NCBI GenBank assembly: GCA_029260655.1
Contig: JAJDCU010000031.1
Coordinates: 1 to 64,000 of the forward strand
Length of the DNA: 64,000 nt
DNA from: Phycisphaeraceae bacterium
GTDB taxonomy: Bacteria; Planctomycetota; Phycisphaerae; Phycisphaerales; Phycisphaeraceae
Reading direction: 5' to 3'
The translations under genes and the position numbers were made by a program. This document shows, one piece after another, positions 8,543 through 54,951 of the stretch. The notes beneath the pieces are model-generated. The model made no database searches and was not told the DNA's origin. It was given only the letters and a program-made list of their open reading frames with translations. Each line of letters starts with the position of its first letter. Position 1 is the stretch's first letter.

Positions 8543-9667
8543 ATGGAACAAGAAGCCCCCACGCTCCTAGAAACTCCCTTCCACCGATTCCACCAGGAGC
8601 ACGGCGCGAACCTGATCGACTTCGCCGGCTGGGAGATGCCCATCCGCTACGGCTCGATCATGGAGGAGCACAAGCAGGTCCGCAACGCCGGCGGGCTGTT
8701 CGACGTCTCGCACATGGGGCGTATCTACTTCTCCGGCCGCCACGCCAGACGGTTCCTCGAGCGTCTGCTTACCCGCCGGGTCAGCGACATGAAGGAAAAC
8801 ACCTGCCGGTACAGCCTTATCTGCAACGAAGAGGGCGGGGTGAAGGACGATGTGCTGATCTACCGCTTTTCAGATAAGTGGCTGCTGGTCGTCAACGCAT
8901 CGAATCGCGCCAAGCTGCTGGATCACTTCGAGCAGATCCAAGGCGAATTGAAGGTGAAGATCGATGACCAGACCGAGTCCACCGCGATGGTTGCTGTTCA
9001 GGGCCCGAAGGTGATGGACATCATCGGCCAGTTCTCCAGCGAGGTCCCATCGCTGAAGCGCTACAGTTTCTGCCAGAAGAACCTGATGATCCTCAAGATG
9101 GTCATCAGCCGGACGGGCTACACCGGGGAAGACGGCGTCGAGGTGATCCTCCCGGCGAAGATGGCGGACATGGCGGTGAAGCTGCTGCTTAAGGACAAGG
9201 GCGAGTCGGCCGCGATCAAGCCCACGGGGCTGGGGGCACGCGACACGCTCCGCATCGAGGCGGCGATGCCTTTGTACGGCCACGAGCTGGACGAAGACAC
9301 CGACCCCTTCGAGGCCGGGCTCGATTTCGCAGTCAATCTCGACAAAGACCAGGACGACAACGGCGAGACGTTCATCGGGCAAGAGGCGCTCAAAGAGATC
9401 AAGGCCCAAGGCCCGCGGCGCCAGCTCATCGGCATCCGCATGCAGGGCCGACGCACCCCCCGCCAGGGCAACGCGATCTACAGCGATGGCACGCAACTGG
9501 GCGCCGTCACCTCCGGCTGCCTCTCGCCGACCCTCGGCCACCCGATCGCGATGGCCTACGTCACACCGGGCTCCTGCTCGATCGGCGACCCCGTCACACT
9601 CGCCGCCGGCTCCAGCCGCGTCGAGGGCGAAATCATCGCCCTGCCGTTTTATAAGCGCGCGAAGTAG
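8543..9667 (+). CDS. gcvT: Glycine cleavage system aminomethyltransferase (T protein)
   Basis: GcvT takes the aminomethyl group from the lipoylated H protein and passes the methylene to tetrahydrofolate, releasing ammonia. The 374-residue product shows FHRFHQEHGANLIDFAGWEMPIRYGSIMEEHKQVRNAGGLFDVSHMGR, then FSRTGYTGEDGVEV-like ISRTGYTGEDGVEVILP and the GLGARDTLRIEAAMPLYGHELDEDTDPFEAGL block, all GcvT signatures. The C-terminal barrel contains GCLSPTLGHPIAMAYV. An upstream GTG at 8498 would add 15 residues, but lies at the likely transcription start. No gcvH or gcvP is in the window. Confidence 0.95.
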   Translation: MEQEAPTLLETPFHRFHQEHGANLIDFAGWEMPIRYGSIMEEHKQVRNAGGLFDVSHMGRIYFSGRHARRFLERLLTRRVSDMKENTCRYSLICNEEGGVKDDVLIYRFSDKWLLVVNASNRAKLLDHFEQIQGELKVKIDDQTESTAMVAVQGPKVMDIIGQFSSEVPSLKRYSFCQKNLMILKMVISRTGYTGEDGVEVILPAKMADMAVKLLLKDKGESAAIKPTGLGARDTLRIEAAMPLYGHELDEDTDPFEAGLDFAVNLDKDQDDNGETFIGQEALKEIKAQGPRRQLIGIRMQGRRTPRQGNAIYSDGTQLGAVTSGCLSPTLGHPIAMAYVTPGSCSIGDPVTLAAGSSRVEGEIIALPFYKRAK

Positions 9668-30906: not shown

Positions 30907-30936
30907 TTGGACAACAGCCCGGATTATCGGTATAAT
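30907..30936 (+). promoter_or_regulatory. Promoter of the PEP-CTERM gene at 31178
   Basis: TTGGAC (30907-30912) and a perfect TATAAT (30931-30936) are 18 bases apart. The first good ORF downstream starts at 31178, which implies an untranslated leader of about 235 bases. Confidence 0.65.
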
Positions 30937-31177
30937 GATTTCGCGTTGGAATGGATCTCTCCGGTCATTTAAGCCTTTGGGGACATGGGGGTTAAAAGAA
31001 AATCGGTCAATAAAAAGCCAATCCTTGGGTCATTTGGGGCTGCGGCATGCGGGTTGTGGTACCACCATTACCCCGGCAAGAGCCCCAACAAATGTGAGTT
31101 GTCGGCTACGAGGGAATCAGGTGGACCGGCCAGCACGCGACATGTGCCGGCCAATGAAAAGTAAGGATGTTGTAACC
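30937..31177 (+). promoter_or_regulatory. Long, possibly structured 5' leader
   Basis: Between the promoter and the ATG at 31178 there is no good ORF. The stretch contains GGGTTGTGGTACCACC with a GTGGTACCAC palindrome near 31055, a GGCC-AGCAC / GTGCC-GGCC stem around 31128-31153, and the Shine-Dalgarno AAGGA at 31162-31167. It does not match a riboswitch class I can recall. Together with the sppA upstream region it makes a 619-base gene-free gap. Confidence 0.45.
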
Positions 31178-31849
31178 ATGAAATCGATCATCACCACTCT
31201 CGCCATCGGTACCGTCCTGAGCTTGGCCGGCCAAGCCTCCGCCCTGACCCTGTCAGGCGACGTCAACATGGTCTTCGCACCTGCCGACGTCACCGCGGAC
31301 GCCCGCACCAACAACAACCGGGCGCTGATGTTCACCGAACAACGCGACACCACCCTGGCCAGCAGCCTACAGGTAGAAGCCTACCTCCCGGGTGTGTATG
31401 ACGCTTCCTCGACAGCCGCCGGGCGCACCCTCGCCGCGGGCCGGGTCGTCACCAGCTTCTTCCTTCACAGCGATGTGAGCGCCGATGCCGCCACACCCAA
31501 GACCATGAGCGGCAGCATCACCTTCAACGAAAAGATCCTCGGCGTGATCTTCGGTGACTTCGCCGCAAGTGACACTCTCGTCGGCGCACCGGGCACCACC
31601 TACGAATCTGCCGTCGGCCACGGGCTGGACCTGTCCGATCCCAACGGCGACTCGTTCCGCATCAGCAACAACCGCATGCGGCTGGATTTCAACTTCAACG
31701 TCAGCGGCATCACCGACCAGATCCGGATCATCACCGCCGGCCAAGCCGCCACCGTGCCGCAGGAAAACCCGATCCCCGAGCCCGTGACCCCCGCGTTGCT
31801 GGCCATGGGCCTGGGCAGCCTGGCACTGCGTCGCCGGCACATCGCCTAA
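31178..31849 (+). CDS. PEP-CTERM sorting-signal protein
   Basis: The 223-residue product has a signal peptide (MKSIITTLAIGTVLSLAGQASALT) and ends PEPVTPALLAMGLGSLALRRRHIA: the PEP motif, a hydrophobic helix and an arginine cluster, which direct processing by exosortase. The body is β-rich, with SFFLHSDVS and MSGSITFNEKILGVIFGDFAASDTLVGAPGTTY, resembling small PEP-CTERM β-sandwich proteins in which an FxxxILGV-like segment recurs. Its function is unknown; most such proteins are exported surface or matrix proteins. AAGGA ten bases upstream supports the ATG at 31178. It is a single-gene transcript with its own promoter and terminator. No exosortase gene is in the window. Confidence 0.88.
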   Translation: MKSIITTLAIGTVLSLAGQASALTLSGDVNMVFAPADVTADARTNNNRALMFTEQRDTTLASSLQVEAYLPGVYDASSTAAGRTLAAGRVVTSFFLHSDVSADAATPKTMSGSITFNEKILGVIFGDFAASDTLVGAPGTTYESAVGHGLDLSDPNGDSFRISNNRMRLDFNFNVSGITDQIRIITAGQAATVPQENPIPEPVTPALLAMGLGSLALRRRHIA

Positions 31850-31913: not shown

Positions 31914-32191
31914 ATCCTCTGGGATCTCCGGGGAAAACGACATGGGAGGCTGGTCCCACCTTGAAATGTGAAACGATTGATGGTGACTGCCTTGCGTATC
32001 GCCGTCTGTCACCCGTGAGATACAGGTCCAAGACCGGGACGCCACCTTCGAACTTCAGGATAAACCTCAAAGTAAACACACGAGGGTCTTGGGCGAGCAC
32101 TTCAATGTTTCGTATCGCCTGAACGTGAAGCCCAGGCCGGCTTTTCGGCTTCGTATGCCGGCGGCCATTGGTGGTGCTATGATCGGTGTTA
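31914..32191. other. Gap before the ABC exporter (with the terminator, 342 bases without a gene)
   Basis: No plus-strand ORF here has a credible start. An extended -10-like TGCTATGAT at 32166-32174 is a weak candidate promoter for the exporter starting at 32192. On the minus strand an open stretch reads like protein (LRFILKFEGGVPVLDLYLTGDRRR) but has no start codon nearby, so I do not call it. Confidence 0.4.
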
Positions 32192-34246
32192 ATGAGCCCG
32201 CCTAGATCCAGCAGCCGAAAATACCGGACGTACCGCCAGGACTTTGCCAAGCGGCACGAGCATGGAGACTCCAAGTCGTCTAAACCGGGGGCCGGCGCCG
32301 ATGGTGTGCCGCGCGCCCGGCAATTGGGCAAGCAGCGCAGCCGAGGGTTTATAACTCTATTCAAGCGGTTTTTTGGGCTTCTGCGGGGCCACCGCACGGC
32401 CCTTGGGCTGGCGGTGCTGACACTGAGCATCTCAACGGTGGTGGACCTGGTGCCGCCGCTGGTGTCGAAGATCGCGATCGACAACGTCATCAATGGCCAG
32501 CCGATGGAGGGTGGCCTCCTGAGCCGGGTGGGGGATTGGCTGCCGGCGAGGGATGATCCCAAGCGGCTGCTGTTTTTCCTGTTCGTGGTCGTGGTGCTGA
32601 TGAACGCCGGGTCGATCCTCACACGGGTCTGGGGCCGGTGGCAGGCGACGCGGATCACACACCGTGCGCGTATCGAGATGCGCCGTCGAGTGTTTAACCA
32701 CGCGATCCGACTGCCGCTGCACCGTGTATTTTCCCTGAAGTCAGGCGGGGCATCGAGCATCATCCGCGAGGACGCCGGGGGCGTGGGCGACCTGGTGTTT
32801 TCGATGATCTACAACCCGGCGGGCGCGATCATCCAACTCGTGGGGATCCTGCTGATCCTGGGGTTCATCGAATGGCGGTTGCTGCTGGGCGCGTTGGTGT
32901 TGCTGCCCGTGGTGTTCATGACGCACCGGACCTGGATCGGGCGTATCCGTCCGCTTTGGCGAGACATCCGTGCGACGCGCTCACACATCGACGGCCGGGT
33001 GACCGAGGCGTTCGGCGGGGTGCGGGTCGTTCGGATCTTTTCACGCGAGCGGACCGAGGGGACGAACTTCGCCACCGACACCCACTTCATGACCCGCCAG
33101 GAGCTGCTTGGCTGGTGGTGGAACCGGGCGATCGACATCGTCTGGCGGATGCTGATCCCTGTCGCGCTGGCGGGCGTGTTGTGTTACGCAGGGGTGCGGA
33201 TCATCGATGACCGCGCCGCGGTGTTGGCCGGAACACTTGCGCCGCACGAGGCGCTGACGGTCGGCGACCTGTTCATGTTCCTGTGGTACTTGGCGAGCCT
33301 GCTGCAACCGTTGGCCCTGCTGGCATCGAGCGCGGCGGGATTGCAGACGTCGCTTGCCGGGCTGGACCGTGTGCTGGACCTGTTGGCCGAGCCGCTGGAG
33401 AGCCCGACCAAGCCCGGGGCGGCGGTGCTTGACCCCAAGGATGTGCTGGGCCGCGTACAGATGCAGGGCGTGACATTCCGTTACCCCAAGGCCGGAAGGT
33501 CTGCGCTGGAAGAGGTGAGCTTTCAGGCCGAGCCCGGCCAGGTTGTGGCGCTGGTCGGCCCAAGCGGCGCGGGCAAGACGACCCTGTGCAACCTGATCGC
33601 ACGGTTCTACGATCCGGGCGCCGGCGAAGTCAGCCTGGACGGGCGAGACCTGCGCCAAGTCCGTGTCGGGAGCTACCGCGCGATGGTCGCGATCGTCGAG
33701 CAGGACATCTTCCTGTTCGACGGCACGGTATCGGACAACATCGCCTACGGCCGGCGAGGTGCGACCCACAGCGAGATCGCCGAAGCCGCCCGACTCGCCA
33801 ACGCACACGCATTCATTAACGAACTGCCCAAGGGCTACGACACCTGGATCGGTGAGCGTGGCGTACGGCTCAGCGGCGGGCAACGACAGCGGCTGGCGAT
33901 CGCAAGGGCCCTGCTCGCTCGGCCTCGCATCCTGATCCTCGACGAGGCGACCAGCAATCTGGACACCGAAGGCGAACGCCTGATCCAGGCCAGCCTGCGC
34001 AACCTCATGGCCGACCGCACCAGCTTCGTCATCGCGCATCGGCTCAGCACGATCACCCACGCCGACCAGATACTGGTGATGGACCAGGGCCGGATCATCG
34101 AGCGCGGCCGGCACGACGAATTGATCGCCCGCAGCGGCAAGTACCGCCAGATGGTCCAGGCCCAGACACACCCCCAGCAGCCCGAGGATGACCAGGACAC
34201 GGATCAGCAGGCGACAGAACCGGCCACCGAGGCGGCTCAGCCGTGA
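32192..34246 (+). CDS. ABC exporter, fused membrane and ATPase domains (MsbA/LmrA type)
   Basis: The 684-residue half-transporter has six membrane helices between residues about 60 and 360 (for example LGLAVLTLSISTVVDLVPPLVSKIAIDNVI and LLFFLFVVVVLMNAGSIL) and a C-terminal ATPase. Walker A is GPSGAGKTTL, the Q loop AIVEQDIFLFDGTVSDNIAYG, the signature LSGGQRQRLAIARALL and Walker B ILILDEATSNLD, with the H switch in FVIAHRLST. As a homodimer it would export lipid or drug-like substrates from the inner membrane. A basic 45-residue N-terminal extension and an acidic Gln/Glu-rich tail are unusual. The ATG 32192 is used. The stop overlaps the next gene by GTGA, so they are coupled. Confidence 0.93.
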   Translation: MSPPRSSSRKYRTYRQDFAKRHEHGDSKSSKPGAGADGVPRARQLGKQRSRGFITLFKRFFGLLRGHRTALGLAVLTLSISTVVDLVPPLVSKIAIDNVINGQPMEGGLLSRVGDWLPARDDPKRLLFFLFVVVVLMNAGSILTRVWGRWQATRITHRARIEMRRRVFNHAIRLPLHRVFSLKSGGASSIIREDAGGVGDLVFSMIYNPAGAIIQLVGILLILGFIEWRLLLGALVLLPVVFMTHRTWIGRIRPLWRDIRATRSHIDGRVTEAFGGVRVVRIFSRERTEGTNFATDTHFMTRQELLGWWWNRAIDIVWRMLIPVALAGVLCYAGVRIIDDRAAVLAGTLAPHEALTVGDLFMFLWYLASLLQPLALLASSAAGLQTSLAGLDRVLDLLAEPLESPTKPGAAVLDPKDVLGRVQMQGVTFRYPKAGRSALEEVSFQAEPGQVVALVGPSGAGKTTLCNLIARFYDPGAGEVSLDGRDLRQVRVGSYRAMVAIVEQDIFLFDGTVSDNIAYGRRGATHSEIAEAARLANAHAFINELPKGYDTWIGERGVRLSGGQRQRLAIARALLARPRILILDEATSNLDTEGERLIQASLRNLMADRTSFVIAHRLSTITHADQILVMDQGRIIERGRHDELIARSGKYRQMVQAQTHPQQPEDDQDTDQQATEPATEAAQP

Positions 34247-35079
34247 CCCGGACCCCGAAAAAAGCCCGACGGCCACACAAGCTGGCGCTGTACCGGCAGG
34301 CGGTTCAGCACCCGCTGGCAGAGGCGTCGTTCCTGCACCGGACGTACCGGCATTACTACAAGGCGCTGCCCGCCCTGCTCCGCGAGGACTTCGCCGGCAC
34401 ATGCGCCGTCGCGTCGGCGTGGGCCCAGATGGACCAGGAACATCAGGCGATGGCGGTCGAGTCCCACGGCCCGACCGCGCGCTGGGCGCAGCGCACAGCC
34501 ACGAAGGAACTGGGCAGCAGCGCCGAAGACCTGCACATCGTCGAGGCGGATGTCCTGAGCATCGCCGGGCCGAAGGTCGACATCACCTGCGCGCTAAACT
34601 TCAGCACGTTCATCTATCACGACCGGGCGCAGCTTAAACACTACTTCAAGACTGCCCGGCGCGGGCTGCGCCAGGATGGCCTGTTCGTGATCGACGCCTA
34701 CGGCGGCCCGGGGGCGATGCGGGTCGGCACACAGACCCGGACCGTCCCCGCGGGCGATCCTCTGGTCGAGGATGACGGGCCCGGTTTCACCTACCACTGG
34801 GAGCAGCGGTCCTTCGACGCGATCTCCCACTTAACCGAGTGCCGGATCCATTTCGAGCTGGGCGACGGCCAACGGATCGACAGTGCGTTTATCTATCGCT
34901 GGCGGCTCTGGTCACTGCCTGAATTGACGGAACTCATGCTTGAATCTGGGTTTAAGCGTGTAGATGTCTGGTGTGACCGGTACGACCCCAAGGCCGGCAC
35001 CAGCGATGGGGTCTATCGGCCGATGCGGCAGATACCCGCCCGGGAGGACTGGGTGGCGTACGTGGTGGGGGCCAGATAG
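34243..35079 (+). CDS. Class I SAM-dependent methyltransferase
   Basis: The 278-residue product resembles class I methyltransferases: LREDFAGTCAVASAWAQ is the SAM-binding motif I variant, LHIVEADVLSI motif II/III, and ITCALNFSTFIYHDRAQLKHYFKTARRGLRQDGLFVIDAYGG motif IV-V. The C-terminal half (YRWRLWSLPELTELMLESGFKRVDVWCDRYD) is the usual end of the family. The substrate is unknown. It begins with GTG inside the exporter's stop (GTGA), a strong sign of translational coupling, so it may modify the exported compound or a lipid. Confidence 0.85.
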   Translation: MTRTPKKARRPHKLALYRQAVQHPLAEASFLHRTYRHYYKALPALLREDFAGTCAVASAWAQMDQEHQAMAVESHGPTARWAQRTATKELGSSAEDLHIVEADVLSIAGPKVDITCALNFSTFIYHDRAQLKHYFKTARRGLRQDGLFVIDAYGGPGAMRVGTQTRTVPAGDPLVEDDGPGFTYHWEQRSFDAISHLTECRIHFELGDGQRIDSAFIYRWRLWSLPELTELMLESGFKRVDVWCDRYDPKAGTSDGVYRPMRQIPAREDWVAYVVGAR

Positions 35080-35195
35080 CTCCAGAAAGACCGGGCCAAG
35101 GGCGGGTGATTTTCTTGCAGAAATCGCCGTTATGGCCTAGATTATGGGCCTTCCAATTATTGGACTTCGGCGTTTTAAGTCCAGGAGCTTTAATT

Positions 35196-37454
35196 GTGCT
35201 GATCCTCATCGTTGCCGAGGGCCCAGATAAGGGCCGGATATACGAGTGGGCGGACGACCAGACGGTGGTTGTCGGCCGAGAAAGCAAGCAACTGCGTCTT
35301 AGCGATCGCAAGGCCTCACGCCGACACGCGCGGTTCAGGTGCGAGGGCGGCAAATGGTACGTGCGCGACCTGGCTTCCAGGCACGGCACGTTCGTCAACA
35401 AGAAACGGATCTCAGGCAAAATCTCGCTGGAGGACGGCGATCTCGTTCAGGTCGGGCGGACCCGTTTGGTGGTCTCGCGTGTCCCGGTCGGTCAGGCTGA
35501 GCAGTTGGCTCGATCAAACGATCTGCCGGGCCCCACCGCCAGACCGGTTGTCCCCGCATTACGACGATTCATCCCCAGCGCCTCCACCACGGCCGCCCTG
35601 TCTGCCGCGGCGTTTGCCGTCGCATGCAGCGCCTGGTTGTATCACAACACGACAAGCGAAAACCGCATACTCCACGACGCTCTGCTCGCATCCCAATCCC
35701 AGGCGAGCACGGCCCAACTGGACGCGGTGGAATTACAGAAGCGCGCGGCCGAGGCACAGCTAGCGACCGCCGACCGCACCGGTGATATCCTCGCGGAGGT
35801 CCGGGCCCTGGGCACACAGAGCCGGCCGATGCTCGATGAGATCCTCGCATCGGTGCAGGAACAAAGCGGCAACACAGAGCAATTGAGTGATATCCGTCAG
35901 GCCCTTGCCGACCTGCACGAAGCGAACCAGCCGGCGCTCGACGCGATCCTGGCCGGCGTTCAATCGCAGTCGCAGCAGTTGGTCGCCCTGGCCGATCTGC
36001 GTGACGCGGTGATACAGCAGCAAGAGGACACCGCCCCGCTTCTGCCGGAGCTACGTGCGTTGGCGCAAACGGCGCAGGTCAACGAAAAGTCGCTGGCTCA
36101 TCTGCGGCGGCAGATCGAGTTGGCTCAAGCCCGCCCGGACCTGGATGCGGTGGTGCTGGACCAGATGGAATCGGTCATGGCCGAGTTGCGTGCCCGACCG
36201 ACCACCGACCAGATCGACGCGCAGGTGCGCCAGGCGCTGGCCGACGAGCACGAGCAGACGGCACAACTTCTGAATCAGATCGAATCGAAACTGACGCCGA
36301 CTCCCCAGACCCAGGAATTGCTGGCGCCGCTGCGTGAGGCGCTCGCCCGGCAGGCCCAGCGCAGCGAACAGTTGCTCGCCCAGGCGTTTAGCCGGCAAGA
36401 GCAGACCGCCGAGCAACTGGCCGAACTACGGACGATGATGCAATCACAGCCGGACCAGACCGCAACCGCGCTGCGCGGCGTGGTCGGCGAGTGGCAGATT
36501 CACGACGACCTGGGCGCGGTGCTGGCCGCGGTGAAGCAGATCGAAGCAGGCGCAGACAACCCGCAAAACACAGCCCTGCTGCAAGACCTGGCGGTGAAGC
36601 TCGAGTCGGCGCCGACGTCGCAGGAGCTTGCAAACGCGGTCGCCCAGGCGGTGACCCAACAGCTGGACGGGACACGTCCTCTGCTCGAACAGATCGCTAA
36701 CTCATTGACCGGCTCAGACGAGGAAAATGCGGCCCGGCAGGCATTGATGCAGCAGGTGCGATTGGCGCTGCAGGCGCAAGAGGAGGCCGACGCCCGGCTC
36801 GATCAGATCTACGACCTGCTTGAGTCGTCTGATACAGGCGCGGACAGCGAAGCGCTGCGACAGGTGCTCCGAGAGATCCGCTCGAAGTCGATAGCGGGCA
36901 TGGACGAGATGCGCTCGACGATCCGCCGGGAGATCCAGACCGGCATGACCCAGCAGCGTGTGGCCACGGCGCAAGCCACGCCCCCGCCCGCGCCTCAGGT
37001 CACCGACCCGGGGCCGACCACAGCCGGGCCGGTGCCTGCCGCCATAGAGAGCAACGATGGGTACGCGATGGCTTCGCCGCAAGACCAAGACACCCTCACC
37101 ATCACCGCCAACGACCCGCCCGACGATGAGGCTCTGACAAAAGTCGAGCGTGCCTACCGCCTGGCGTTTACGACCGGTCAGCCGATCTCGATCGGGGGCG
37201 GGCTGATGGATACACAAAACGGCGCTATCTCACTGGGGCGCACGCTCGACCCCGCCACCGCGAAAGCCGCCGGGATCACCGACTGGCGCGACTGGTATCT
37301 GCTGGACGACTTCGCCGAACGCATGCGGATGCAGCAGCAGGCGGTGAAGTACCGTGACGATCGGCGAGGCGACATGAACATCCTCGGCATCCCCGCCGAC
37401 GCCGTAAACACCGACGCCAACCTCACCGCACCCGGGCCCGGCAGCGGCGGGTGA
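35196..37454 (+). CDS. FHA-domain membrane protein with a long coiled coil
   Basis: The 752-residue product starts at GTG 35196, with AGGAG eight bases upstream. Residues 1-95 are an FHA domain (VVVGRESKQLRLSDRKASRRHARFRCEGGKWYVRDLASRHGTFVNKKRI), which binds phosphothreonine peptides; the GRE, SRRH and HGTFVN signature residues are present. A transmembrane helix lies near 125-149 (TTAALSAAAFAVACSAWLY). Residues 150-590 are Gln/Ala/Leu-rich coiled coil with 35-residue repeats. A Pro-rich linker and a compact C-terminal region (TKVERAYRLAFTTGQPISIGGG..) end it. FHA is inside, the coiled coil outside if the N-terminus is cytoplasmic. Function unknown; it could link kinase signalling to the envelope. 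Confidence 0.85.
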   Translation: MLILIVAEGPDKGRIYEWADDQTVVVGRESKQLRLSDRKASRRHARFRCEGGKWYVRDLASRHGTFVNKKRISGKISLEDGDLVQVGRTRLVVSRVPVGQAEQLARSNDLPGPTARPVVPALRRFIPSASTTAALSAAAFAVACSAWLYHNTTSENRILHDALLASQSQASTAQLDAVELQKRAAEAQLATADRTGDILAEVRALGTQSRPMLDEILASVQEQSGNTEQLSDIRQALADLHEANQPALDAILAGVQSQSQQLVALADLRDAVIQQQEDTAPLLPELRALAQTAQVNEKSLAHLRRQIELAQARPDLDAVVLDQMESVMAELRARPTTDQIDAQVRQALADEHEQTAQLLNQIESKLTPTPQTQELLAPLREALARQAQRSEQLLAQAFSRQEQTAEQLAELRTMMQSQPDQTATALRGVVGEWQIHDDLGAVLAAVKQIEAGADNPQNTALLQDLAVKLESAPTSQELANAVAQAVTQQLDGTRPLLEQIANSLTGSDEENAARQALMQQVRLALQAQEEADARLDQIYDLLESSDTGADSEALRQVLREIRSKSIAGMDEMRSTIRREIQTGMTQQRVATAQATPPPAPQVTDPGPTTAGPVPAAIESNDGYAMASPQDQDTLTITANDPPDDEALTKVERAYRLAFTTGQPISIGGGLMDTQNGAISLGRTLDPATAKAAGITDWRDWYLLDDFAERMRMQQQAVKYRDDRRGDMNILGIPADAVNTDANLTAPGPGSGG

Positions 37455-52479: not shown

Positions 52480-54951
52480 TCAGGCGGCCTTGCGATCGGG
52501 GCCCGGGTCGGGGGGCTGGTTCTGCTTGGCGGTCTGCCCGGCTTCGTCACGGGTGTCGACCAGCTTGGCGGCCTTCTTGCCCATGCGGCTGGCCATCTCC
52601 TGCAAGGGGGTGGTGAGCTTACTGGCATTGACGACGGGCGGCTCCGTCGAGCCGGCCGAATCCGGGGTGTCACGCCGGATCGCACTGCGGACGCTATTGC
52701 CGACGTCGGCGATCTGCCCGAGTTCCTCGATGACCTGACGGCGTAGCGGAGACACGACGTTCTCGACCTCTTGCCGGACACGGGTCATGTGTTCATGCAG
52801 CTCACGCTCGGCGTCCTGTGCGGCGGCTACGGCCTGAGGCTGAAGGTCGGCAACACGCTTACCGAGCTGATCCTCCACGACCTGGACCATTGCCTGCGCG
52901 TTATCGCGTAGCTTGCTGAGCCTCTGGGTGAACTGACTTTCGATCGCTTCGATCGCCTGATGGGTCTGCGGCTCGATACCCTTGAGCCGGCGGCTAAGCT
53001 GCTGCTCGATCAGCTCGACCATGCTCTGGGATGAGGCGCACAGGTCCTGAACACGTCGCCGCATCTTCTCCTGGGTGTCTTCGATGGAGAGTTCGGCCTG
53101 CTGCTGGAGCTCTCGCTTTTGCTGTTCCAGGGCCGCCTGTGTCTCTTTGTGGAGCGATTCTTGTTGGGCCTTGGTCGTGTCTTCGATCTGGGCCTGGGTC
53201 TTTTGTGTCAGGTCGTCCACGTGTTGCTGGTAGTTGGACAAGTCTTCATGAAGCCTGGCCTTGAACGGATCGGTGAGGGCTTCAGCCCGGCTCATCGCCT
53301 GGACAACCTGCTCGCGCACCGTGCTTTCGATCACGTCGGCCACGTGGCTGGCTCTCTCGTCGGCCTTAGCGGAGGCCTCGGCGGCCTGGGACTCTATTCG
53401 CTGGGTCGCATCGACCGCCTCGGCGTAGCTCTGATCCAGCGACGCGGTCAGCCGGCCGTGGATCTGCTGAGCCGTGGACTCGGCGCGGACGTCGGCCTCA
53501 TCGAGAGCCTGGTCGATACGTCTGGACAACTTGACCACCATTTCGTCCGCCGTGTCGTTGACTTGCTGCACGGCCTGCTGGGTCTTGCGGTCCCACGATT
53601 CCGTGAGGGTTTGGCAGGCCTTTTCCGTTTCTTCTTCGAGCGTCTGACGCTTGGTTTCCAGTTCGGCGGCAACCGCTTCGATACGCTCTCGCTGCTGCCC
53701 GATCAGGTGGTCTGCCAGCGCCTTGGCCCGCTCGTCAAACGTGCGGATCAACTCGGTCTGCTTCTGGACAAACATCGCCTGGAGCTTCTCGCTCATCGCC
53801 TGCTCGTGCTGATCCAGGGCCTGCTGTTGGCTATCCAGGCGTAGGGCGAGCTGCTCATCCTGCTCCTTGAACCTTTCGTCCAGTGAAGCCTGCTGCTGGG
53901 ATTGAGCCGCCTCGTGTGCTTTCAGGCGCTGGGCGAACCGCTCATCCTGTTCCTTGAGCTTTTCGTCCAACGAAACCTGATGCTGAGACAGCGCTGCTTC
54001 GTGAGCCTTCAGGCGATCGGCCAAAAGTCCATCCAACAACTGTTGCGCCTGAGTGGGCAGGAGGTCGATCCGTTGCTGGATCGTGTCGTCTGCCCGGTCG
54101 GATAGTTCCTGAACGCGGTCGTCAAGGTTCTGGATCGCGTCGTTAAGCGAGGCGGTCTGGGCGCGTGCGTCTTCGATGACGCTGTTCAGCGCCAGCTTGG
54201 ACGGCTCCAAGGCCTGCTGGGCCTGAGCGGGCAGGTTGTCGAGTTTGCCGGCGAGGTCCTTGTCGGCGGCGGCGATGATGTGTTGGATCCGCTCGCCGCA
54301 TTCGGTGGTGTGGATTTCTAATTGCCCAAAGATCGGGGAGATCAGCTTCTGGGCTTCGTCGCGCGCCAGCCCGGCTGCGGCGGCGGTGCGGTCGTCGATC
54401 TCGGTGAAGGTTTTCTCGATCTGGTGGTGCAGGTCCCGCAGTTGCTCCCGGGCCGATCCCTGCGCGTGGCGGAAGTCGCCGAGCCGATCGCCTACGGTTT
54501 CATTCAGTTGCTCTAACTGTGTCCGGGCGTCCTGCACGATCAGGTCCATGGAAGTCTGAACGGCCTGCTTGGCCGCGACGAGCTCGGGTTGGAATGAGCG
54601 GGCCTTGTCCAGCTGCGCGTTGAGCTGCTCGGCGAGATCCTGAACACCGCGTCGGATCTGGTCCACCTGCTGTGTGCGTTTTTCCAGCGTGGCCTCATCC
54701 TCGTGAAGCCGGTCGTAGCGATTTCGTACGGCGTCGTCGATCGCGCGAACCTTGCCGGTGAGTTGGGCGATCTCCTCGGCGGGCGGGACGACCCCGGCGG
54801 TGCCGAAGCGCGCCTCGCAGTCCTTGAGCATCCGAAGCAGACGCAGGCGTTCGTCCTTGACGCGATCGAGGATAGCCAGCAACTCGGCGGCGGCGGTGTT
54901 GGCGTTGTTGGCGAGGGGGTTGGGCTGACCTTGAGGGTATACGTTGCTCAC
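52480..54951 (-). CDS. Long soluble coiled-coil protein
   Basis: The 823-residue product has no signal peptide and no transmembrane helix; from about residue 20 to 760 it is nearly all Gln/Glu/Ala/Leu heptads. A 29-residue unit repeats: RLKAHEAALSQHQVSLDEKL... is followed directly by RLKAHEAAQSQQQASLDERF..., and then a weaker third copy. The N-terminus (NVYPQGQPNPLANNANTAAAELLAILDRVKDERLRLLRML) and C-terminus (KLTTPLQEMASRMGKKAAKLVDTRDEAGQTAKQNQ) are conserved-looking caps. It could be a cytoskeletal, SMC-like or scaffold protein; no ATPase motif exists. It has its own terminator and is divergent from the antiporter gene. Confidence 0.85.
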   Translation of the reverse strand: MSNVYPQGQPNPLANNANTAAAELLAILDRVKDERLRLLRMLKDCEARFGTAGVVPPAEEIAQLTGKVRAIDDAVRNRYDRLHEDEATLEKRTQQVDQIRRGVQDLAEQLNAQLDKARSFQPELVAAKQAVQTSMDLIVQDARTQLEQLNETVGDRLGDFRHAQGSAREQLRDLHHQIEKTFTEIDDRTAAAAGLARDEAQKLISPIFGQLEIHTTECGERIQHIIAAADKDLAGKLDNLPAQAQQALEPSKLALNSVIEDARAQTASLNDAIQNLDDRVQELSDRADDTIQQRIDLLPTQAQQLLDGLLADRLKAHEAALSQHQVSLDEKLKEQDERFAQRLKAHEAAQSQQQASLDERFKEQDEQLALRLDSQQQALDQHEQAMSEKLQAMFVQKQTELIRTFDERAKALADHLIGQQRERIEAVAAELETKRQTLEEETEKACQTLTESWDRKTQQAVQQVNDTADEMVVKLSRRIDQALDEADVRAESTAQQIHGRLTASLDQSYAEAVDATQRIESQAAEASAKADERASHVADVIESTVREQVVQAMSRAEALTDPFKARLHEDLSNYQQHVDDLTQKTQAQIEDTTKAQQESLHKETQAALEQQKRELQQQAELSIEDTQEKMRRRVQDLCASSQSMVELIEQQLSRRLKGIEPQTHQAIEAIESQFTQRLSKLRDNAQAMVQVVEDQLGKRVADLQPQAVAAAQDAERELHEHMTRVRQEVENVVSPLRRQVIEELGQIADVGNSVRSAIRRDTPDSAGSTEPPVVNASKLTTPLQEMASRMGKKAAKLVDTRDEAGQTAKQNQPPDPGPDRKAA

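Follow-up and report, generated by a model that had tools for sequence, protein, structure and literature searches.

The protein encoded at positions 35196 to 37454 of the window has two conserved ends joined by a long middle that has drifted in sequence. At the N-terminus is an FHA domain with an intact phosphothreonine-binding face, and near the C-terminus is a small domain that we could assign to no known family; between them lie one membrane stretch and a helical region with a heptad-like period. We propose, with about an even chance of being right, that the protein is a single-pass, phospho-regulated connector in the inner membrane, linking the cytoplasm with the envelope.

The gene and its layout

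The window, by which we mean the whole 64,000-nucleotide stretch of DNA analysed, is on contig 31 of a genome of 3.5 Mb (G000). The reading frame is open throughout, and the parts of the protein are listed in the table. The GTG given there is likely to be the start, since it is preceded by an AGGAG and the orthologues in the other genomes of the genus, which are full-length in all five (59–63% identity), have an ATG at the matching residue. The GTG at 35106, where a mechanical search for open reading frames begins the gene, was rejected as over-extended at the 5′ end.

Features of the gene and its surroundings (positions in the window; residues numbered from the GTG start)
Feature	Positions	Strand	Basis
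Class I methyltransferase-like gene upstream, 278 aa (read from sequence)	34243–35079	+	No Pfam/NCBIfam match
Ribosome-binding-like AGGAG, 8 bases 5′ of the GTG start	35183–35187	+	Read from sequence
Whole gene, 752 aa, GTG start	35196–37454	+	ORF, orthologue starts, AGGAG
FHA domain, residues 1–96 (Pfam 24–87), face R28, S41, R42, T65, N68	35196–35483	+	Pfam, alignments
Uncharged stretch, residues 125–154, with single predicted membrane helix ~128–150	35568–35657	+	Hydropathy; model helix 131–167
Helical rod, probable coiled coil, residues 155–585, heptad-like period	35658–36950	+	Structure model, periodicity
35-residue repeat, copy 1, residues 212–246	35829–35933	+	Self-alignment, L033 matches
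35-residue repeat, copy 2, residues 247–281	35934–36038	+	Self-alignment, L033 matches
Proline-rich linker, fast-evolving, residues 586–644	36951–37127	+	pLDDT mostly <50; regional conservation
Conserved C-terminal domain, residues 645–720, no known family	37128–37355	+	Alignment, profile searches, models

Two conserved ends and a drifting middle

Compared with six distant members of the family, the FHA domain and the C-terminal domain have identities of 0.52 and 0.54, while those of the coil segments are 0.17–0.24, of the linkers and tail 0.13–0.19 and of the membrane stretch 0.21. These regional values come from six same-genus and six distant rows of alignment A2, a subset of the 21 members. 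The same pattern is seen within the genus, where pN/pS is 0.15 for the FHA domain, 0.21 for the C-terminal domain and about 0.3 for the coil, rising to 0.64 in the proline-rich linker and 0.81 in the tail. That the ends are conserved while the rod and linkers drift suggests two functional heads with a spacer between them.

The FHA and C-terminal domains share one open frame in 20 of the 21 members, and the frames range from 621 to 1750 residues when the split gene of G425 is left out. In that genome (L079, 6994–9237) the FHA domain is in a frame of 748 residues and the match to the C-terminal domain in a separate one of 530, as if a frameshift had broken the gene in that assembly. The longest member, G021 (1750 residues), was too long for the full-length alignments A2 and A3 and was left out of them. 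Alignments A1 and A2 predate eight further members, and L070, whose ORF was not located, is missing from A3 and A4.

The FHA domain

PF00498 matches residues 24–87 with an E-value of 4.6e-17 (62.7 bits against a curated cut-off of 20.7). The preliminary description had taken the phosphothreonine face to be intact, and the wider family agrees with it: R28, S41, H44, T65 and N68 are kept in all 21 members and R42 in 20, and the binding-face positions (glycine-arginine, Ser-Arg-x-His, Gly-Thr and Asn) are invariant in both 12-row alignments. Among solved structures the domain is closest to GarA and OdhI. The Ser, Arg and Thr aligned to it are given as consensus cleft residues in an excerpt of the DgcB paper, which also describes the phosphothreonine pocket of OdhI (PMC6733907). 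The domain is a putative phosphothreonine binder.

The predicted membrane helix and topology

The predicted membrane helix is of modest hydropathy (Kyte-Doolittle 1.43, within a range of 1.41–2.32 over the 21 members), and the second-highest peak of the window protein is 0.83. It lies beyond a variable linker that follows the FHA domain. Each of the 21 members has one uncharged stretch of 22–33 residues, and in prediction each is a single-pass protein with a positive cytoplasmic side; 64 Lys and Arg residues flank the stretch on its N-terminal side and 40 follow it. The single helix of the preliminary description is thus supported by position and conservation, despite the modest hydropathy, and the FHA domain would be placed inside with the C-terminus outside.

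In 20 of the 21 members the helix comes after the FHA part. The exception is G021, where it is found at residues 1457–1483, behind a coil of about 1260 residues. In this one genome the coil would lie in the cytoplasm and both heads would keep their sides, which means that not every member has its rod outside the cytoplasm.

The helical rod and its 35-residue repeat

Residues 131–594 were modelled as helices with short breaks, in a model of the full protein with a mean pLDDT of 49.8 and low confidence outside the C-terminal domain. The hydrophobic period of the window protein is 3.46, heptad-like, and was equalled in strength by one of 1000 shuffles. Across the 21 members the period peaks at 3.22–3.88, some of them away from 3.5, and in 20 no more than 17 of 1000 shuffles were as strong. 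The rod is probably a coiled coil, and probably oligomeric. This fits the far-side helical coiled coil described earlier, for which about 430 helical residues are modelled with the period given above. Drawn as one straight helix, the 481-residue helical segment would be about 72 nm long (0.15 nm per residue). The usual periplasm is narrower than this, and the rod would be expected to bend, to form a bundle or to sit in an expanded periplasm.

Internal 35-residue repeats had also been reported. Residues 212–246 align without gaps to residues 247–281, with 15 of 35 identical and a BLOSUM62 score of 61, a score that at a spacing of 35 was reached in none of 200 plain shuffles and none of 200 register-preserving ones. 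The top-scoring pair of 35-residue windows in the coil scores 65, again at a spacing of 35; at any spacing this was reached by one of 200 plain shuffles and by none of 200 that preserved the register. The pair is also found in another genus (L033, residues 176–207 and 212–242, E about 3e-7 each). The adjacent pair is therefore real, but it is a single tandem pair with weak echoes rather than an array, as no further clear copy was found in the window protein. As 35 residues are five heptads, a tandem copy leaves the coil in register.

A longer series is present in G021, where a profile built from its own units finds 23 or more copies, each about 35 residues long. This 23-unit profile gave weak matches in nine of the 20 other members (best E 0.0005) against one of 21 controls (E 0.005). 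With matches this faint, we dropped the idea of a homologous repeat common to the whole family.

The C-terminal domain

The most distinctive part of the protein is one that the preliminary description had left out. The domain is about 75 residues long, and among 13 aligned members A9, Y10, A13, F14, G37, L40, G49, W53 and W56 (numbered as in the first row) are invariant. It was modelled with pLDDT in blocks of 80–87 over residues 681–710 of the full model and of up to 96 when the C-terminal region was modelled separately. The modelled order is a helix, two short strands with a loop between them, and then a short and a long helix.

A profile search of this region had been proposed, and neither that search nor those of PDB sequences and folds led to a known family. 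Pfam gave nothing below an E-value of 0.09 for the domain in any of the 13 members, and no credible match to its profile was found among PDB sequences. The hits to dTor designed repeat proteins in the PDB (3.9e-10 and 7.8e-8) were rejected, being built from 14-residue alignments of which no single stretch was over the threshold. Fold searches with the C-terminal model gave a best E-value of 0.92 and no Z of 2 or more, though disordered parts may have hurt the search.

Strong E-values for the domain are confined to the Phycisphaeraceae, where it is found in 21 of 51 genomes. The profile matched five of 397 genomes of the class, each within the same family. In a sample of the phylum, 13 of 392 genomes matched at E ≤0.01, of which four are strong matches from Phycisphaeraceae and nine are weak and partial (E 0.001–0.01). 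We take these nine to be chance matches; the four of them that were inspected are short fragments, mostly around Trp-x-x-Trp. When 84,980 species genomes were scanned, 12 loci could be confirmed, all in records titled Phycisphaeraceae, Phycisphaera, Phycisphaerae or Planctomycetota, and no relative of the domain was confirmed in viral contigs.

Comparison with known systems

That no described family has this plan, as first stated, is too strong. An FHA domain followed by a membrane helix and a periplasmic part is known from GltG and from PrgH, YscD and CdsD, according to excerpts of the papers that describe them (PMC3169522, PMC3635987). The other half of the statement stands: no characterised family spans the whole protein, and among the published matches listed we recognised no description of a protein family with this FHA domain, coil and C-terminal domain. 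The protein is a variant of the known plan of FHA-membrane connectors, and its novelty is the domain at the tip; it resembles such connectors, and of the families tested it is a member of the FHA family only.

In the excerpted account of GltG, part of the gliding machinery of M. xanthus, an FHA domain is followed by a membrane helix and a TonB-like C-terminus (PMC3169522). The window protein is like GltG (NF033760) in its N-terminal FHA domain, single predicted membrane helix, far-side C-terminal domain and lack of a signal peptide. GltG, however, has a TonB-like domain (PF03544) and forms a core complex with AglRQS (as excerpted, PMC3169522), whereas in the window protein the coil is long and the C-terminal domain unrelated. 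PrgH, YscD, MxiG and CdsD of type III secretion share the order of cytoplasmic FHA fold, membrane helix and periplasmic part, and in the excerpted source the FHA-fold cytoplasmic domain of PrgH, YscD and CdsD belongs to a ring protein of the inner membrane (PMC3635987). YscJ_FliF, the sole type III gene sought, has one match in G000, on another contig, which may be the flagellar FliF.

In sequence the FHA domain is closest to the phosphothreonine-binding fold of OdhI, GarA and FhaB (FipA) of Actinobacteria (NF041660, NF049868; PDB 6i2q, 2kb3). These are small FHA proteins without a rod or C-terminal domain, and the equivalog cut-offs were missed (53.4 against 200 bits and 67.1 against 125). 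TolA and TonB have a membrane helix, a long span and a small C-terminal domain, without an FHA domain; their C-terminal domains have no match in the window protein. The eukaryotic, tail-anchored SLMAP has an FHA domain, a coiled coil and a membrane helix in one chain, at least in the excerpted text, and the order resembles that of G021, a likeness of plan only (PMC2712456).

A possible connector across the inner membrane

In the reading that we prefer, the FHA domain would bind a threonine-phosphorylated partner in the cytoplasm and the membrane helix would carry the chain across the inner membrane. The coiled-coil rod, probably oligomeric, and the flexible proline-rich linker would keep the C-terminal domain off the membrane, where it could bind a partner in the envelope. 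Kinase activity in the cytoplasm might then lead to the recruitment, clustering or release of an envelope structure.

The plan by itself would also suit a static protein that scaffolds or tethers an envelope machine in the style of PrgH and YscD, with the FHA fold used for packing between proteins and no phospho-regulation. The FHA-fold domain of PrgH is considered unlikely to bind phosphothreonine in the excerpted source (PMC3635987), so an FHA domain, helix and periplasmic part in this order are no proof of phospho-binding, and PF16697 (Yop-YscD_cpl) does match residues 6–94 (E 3.5e-12). PF00498 nevertheless outscores it, and R28, S41, T65 and N68 are present in every member, while the phosphopeptide residues are poorly conserved in the PrgH relatives covered by the excerpt (PMC3635987). 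With no Pfam match to the ring-building periplasmic domains of PrgH/YscD (SctD) either, we think a static scaffold possible but doubtful. That the protein passes force across the envelope, as a connector of the GltG, TolA or TonB type coupled to energy or to a motor, is improbable. Its cytoplasmic FHA domain, single helix, extracytoplasmic span and small C-terminal domain are a GltG-like plan, the NCBIfam model of GltG matches with an E-value of 3.3e-10 and eight of 12 members match that model at E ≤0.001, but the score is 39.2 bits against a cut-off of 650, the match covers residues 26–203 only and includes the FHA domain, and PF03544, the TonB-like domain, has no match in the window protein at E ≤1.

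An altogether cytoplasmic FHA coiled-coil adaptor, whose helix is not a true span, would account for the Ala-rich character and modest hydropathy of that helix, a region of low model confidence. It is hard to reconcile with an uncharged stretch in all 21 members whose hydropathy goes up to 2.32, the second-highest peak of the window protein being 0.83, and we regard it as very improbable.

Returning to the phospho-regulated connector, a more specific form of it can be put forward tentatively, although we think it rather unlikely to hold in every part. The Phycisphaeraceae would have their own phospho-gated connectors, with an FHA reader inside and an undescribed binding domain outside, in which the coil has been resized partly in 35-residue (five-heptad) steps and, in one lineage, moved across the membrane with the heads keeping their sides. 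If so, the coil would be a spacer of tunable length and the new domain an envelope anchor, in bacteria about whose cell biology little is understood.

The strictly conserved ends lead us to expect a phosphothreonine ligand in the cytoplasm and a partner for the C-terminal domain beyond the membrane, and a small undescribed domain together with a defined set of orthologues offers a way to probe whether phosphothreonine signals reach the envelope in Planctomycetota.

Gene neighbourhood and other FHA proteins

It had been suggested that the protein carries Ser/Thr-kinase signals and that such kinases be sought nearby; an HRDLKPxN-like motif was found in none of the 217 neighbouring ORFs. Seven kinase matches in G000 exceed the Pfam cut-off, all of them on contigs other than that of the window, and the genome has seven FHA domains in total. 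Ser/Thr kinases are absent or very few in Phycisphaera according to an excerpt of a published survey (PMC11032199). In the neighbourhoods of the members no obvious partner gene linked to the FHA gene was found. In the window an ABC transporter (32186–34246) lies upstream of the methyltransferase-like gene, and on the opposite strand downstream are a ROK-family protein and a sodium:solute symporter, with an amidase further on.

In 11 of the 21 genomes the methyltransferase-like gene is the immediate upstream neighbour, in the same orientation, and in three more it is no further than about 2.1 kb away; in the rest it is cut off by a contig end (two) or not adjacent (five). It is, however, present in 46 of the 51 family genomes, often in two copies, some of which were missed by ORF calling at the loci and found by searching the 51 genomes. 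In six genomes that lack the FHA gene a polyphosphate kinase comes after the methyltransferase-like gene in the same orientation (L090, L094, L096, L098, L099 and L100), and the same order was read from coordinates in a seventh, G088. As the gene is nearly universal and has polyphosphate kinase after it elsewhere, the case for a function shared with the FHA gene is weak and its frequent position upstream looks incidental. Mutual exclusion of polyphosphate kinase and the FHA gene, an idea prompted by the lack of the kinase in G000, did not hold up, 19 of the 21 FHA-bearing genomes having the kinase. G000 has no polyphosphate kinase match while all five other genomes of the genus have one, and this may be an assembly gap.

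A link to exosortase and PEP-CTERM sorting was also considered. Some genomes have an exosortase gene in the neighbourhood of the FHA gene, yet exosortase matches occur in all 51 family genomes, which leaves such neighbours uninformative about an association. Elsewhere in the window, the protein at 30935–31849 (+) has a weak match to a PEP-CTERM model (NF038129, below cut-off) and an end like a sorting signal, its listed start being probably too far upstream. Another, at 52480–54951 (−), is a coiled-coil-rich protein of 823 residues without a membrane helix, whose match to PF01442 (2e-16) does not reach the curated cut-off.

A possible kinase-FHA cluster is seen on contig 32 of G000 (L114, L115), which opens with a kinase match and has two FHA proteins within about 7 kb. 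The genus also has a second FHA membrane protein, at 8694–11708 of L034 (G000, contig 53) and in L035 and L036, in which a long stretch of acidic, low-complexity sequence separates the FHA domain from one membrane helix, with a von Willebrand A domain after it.
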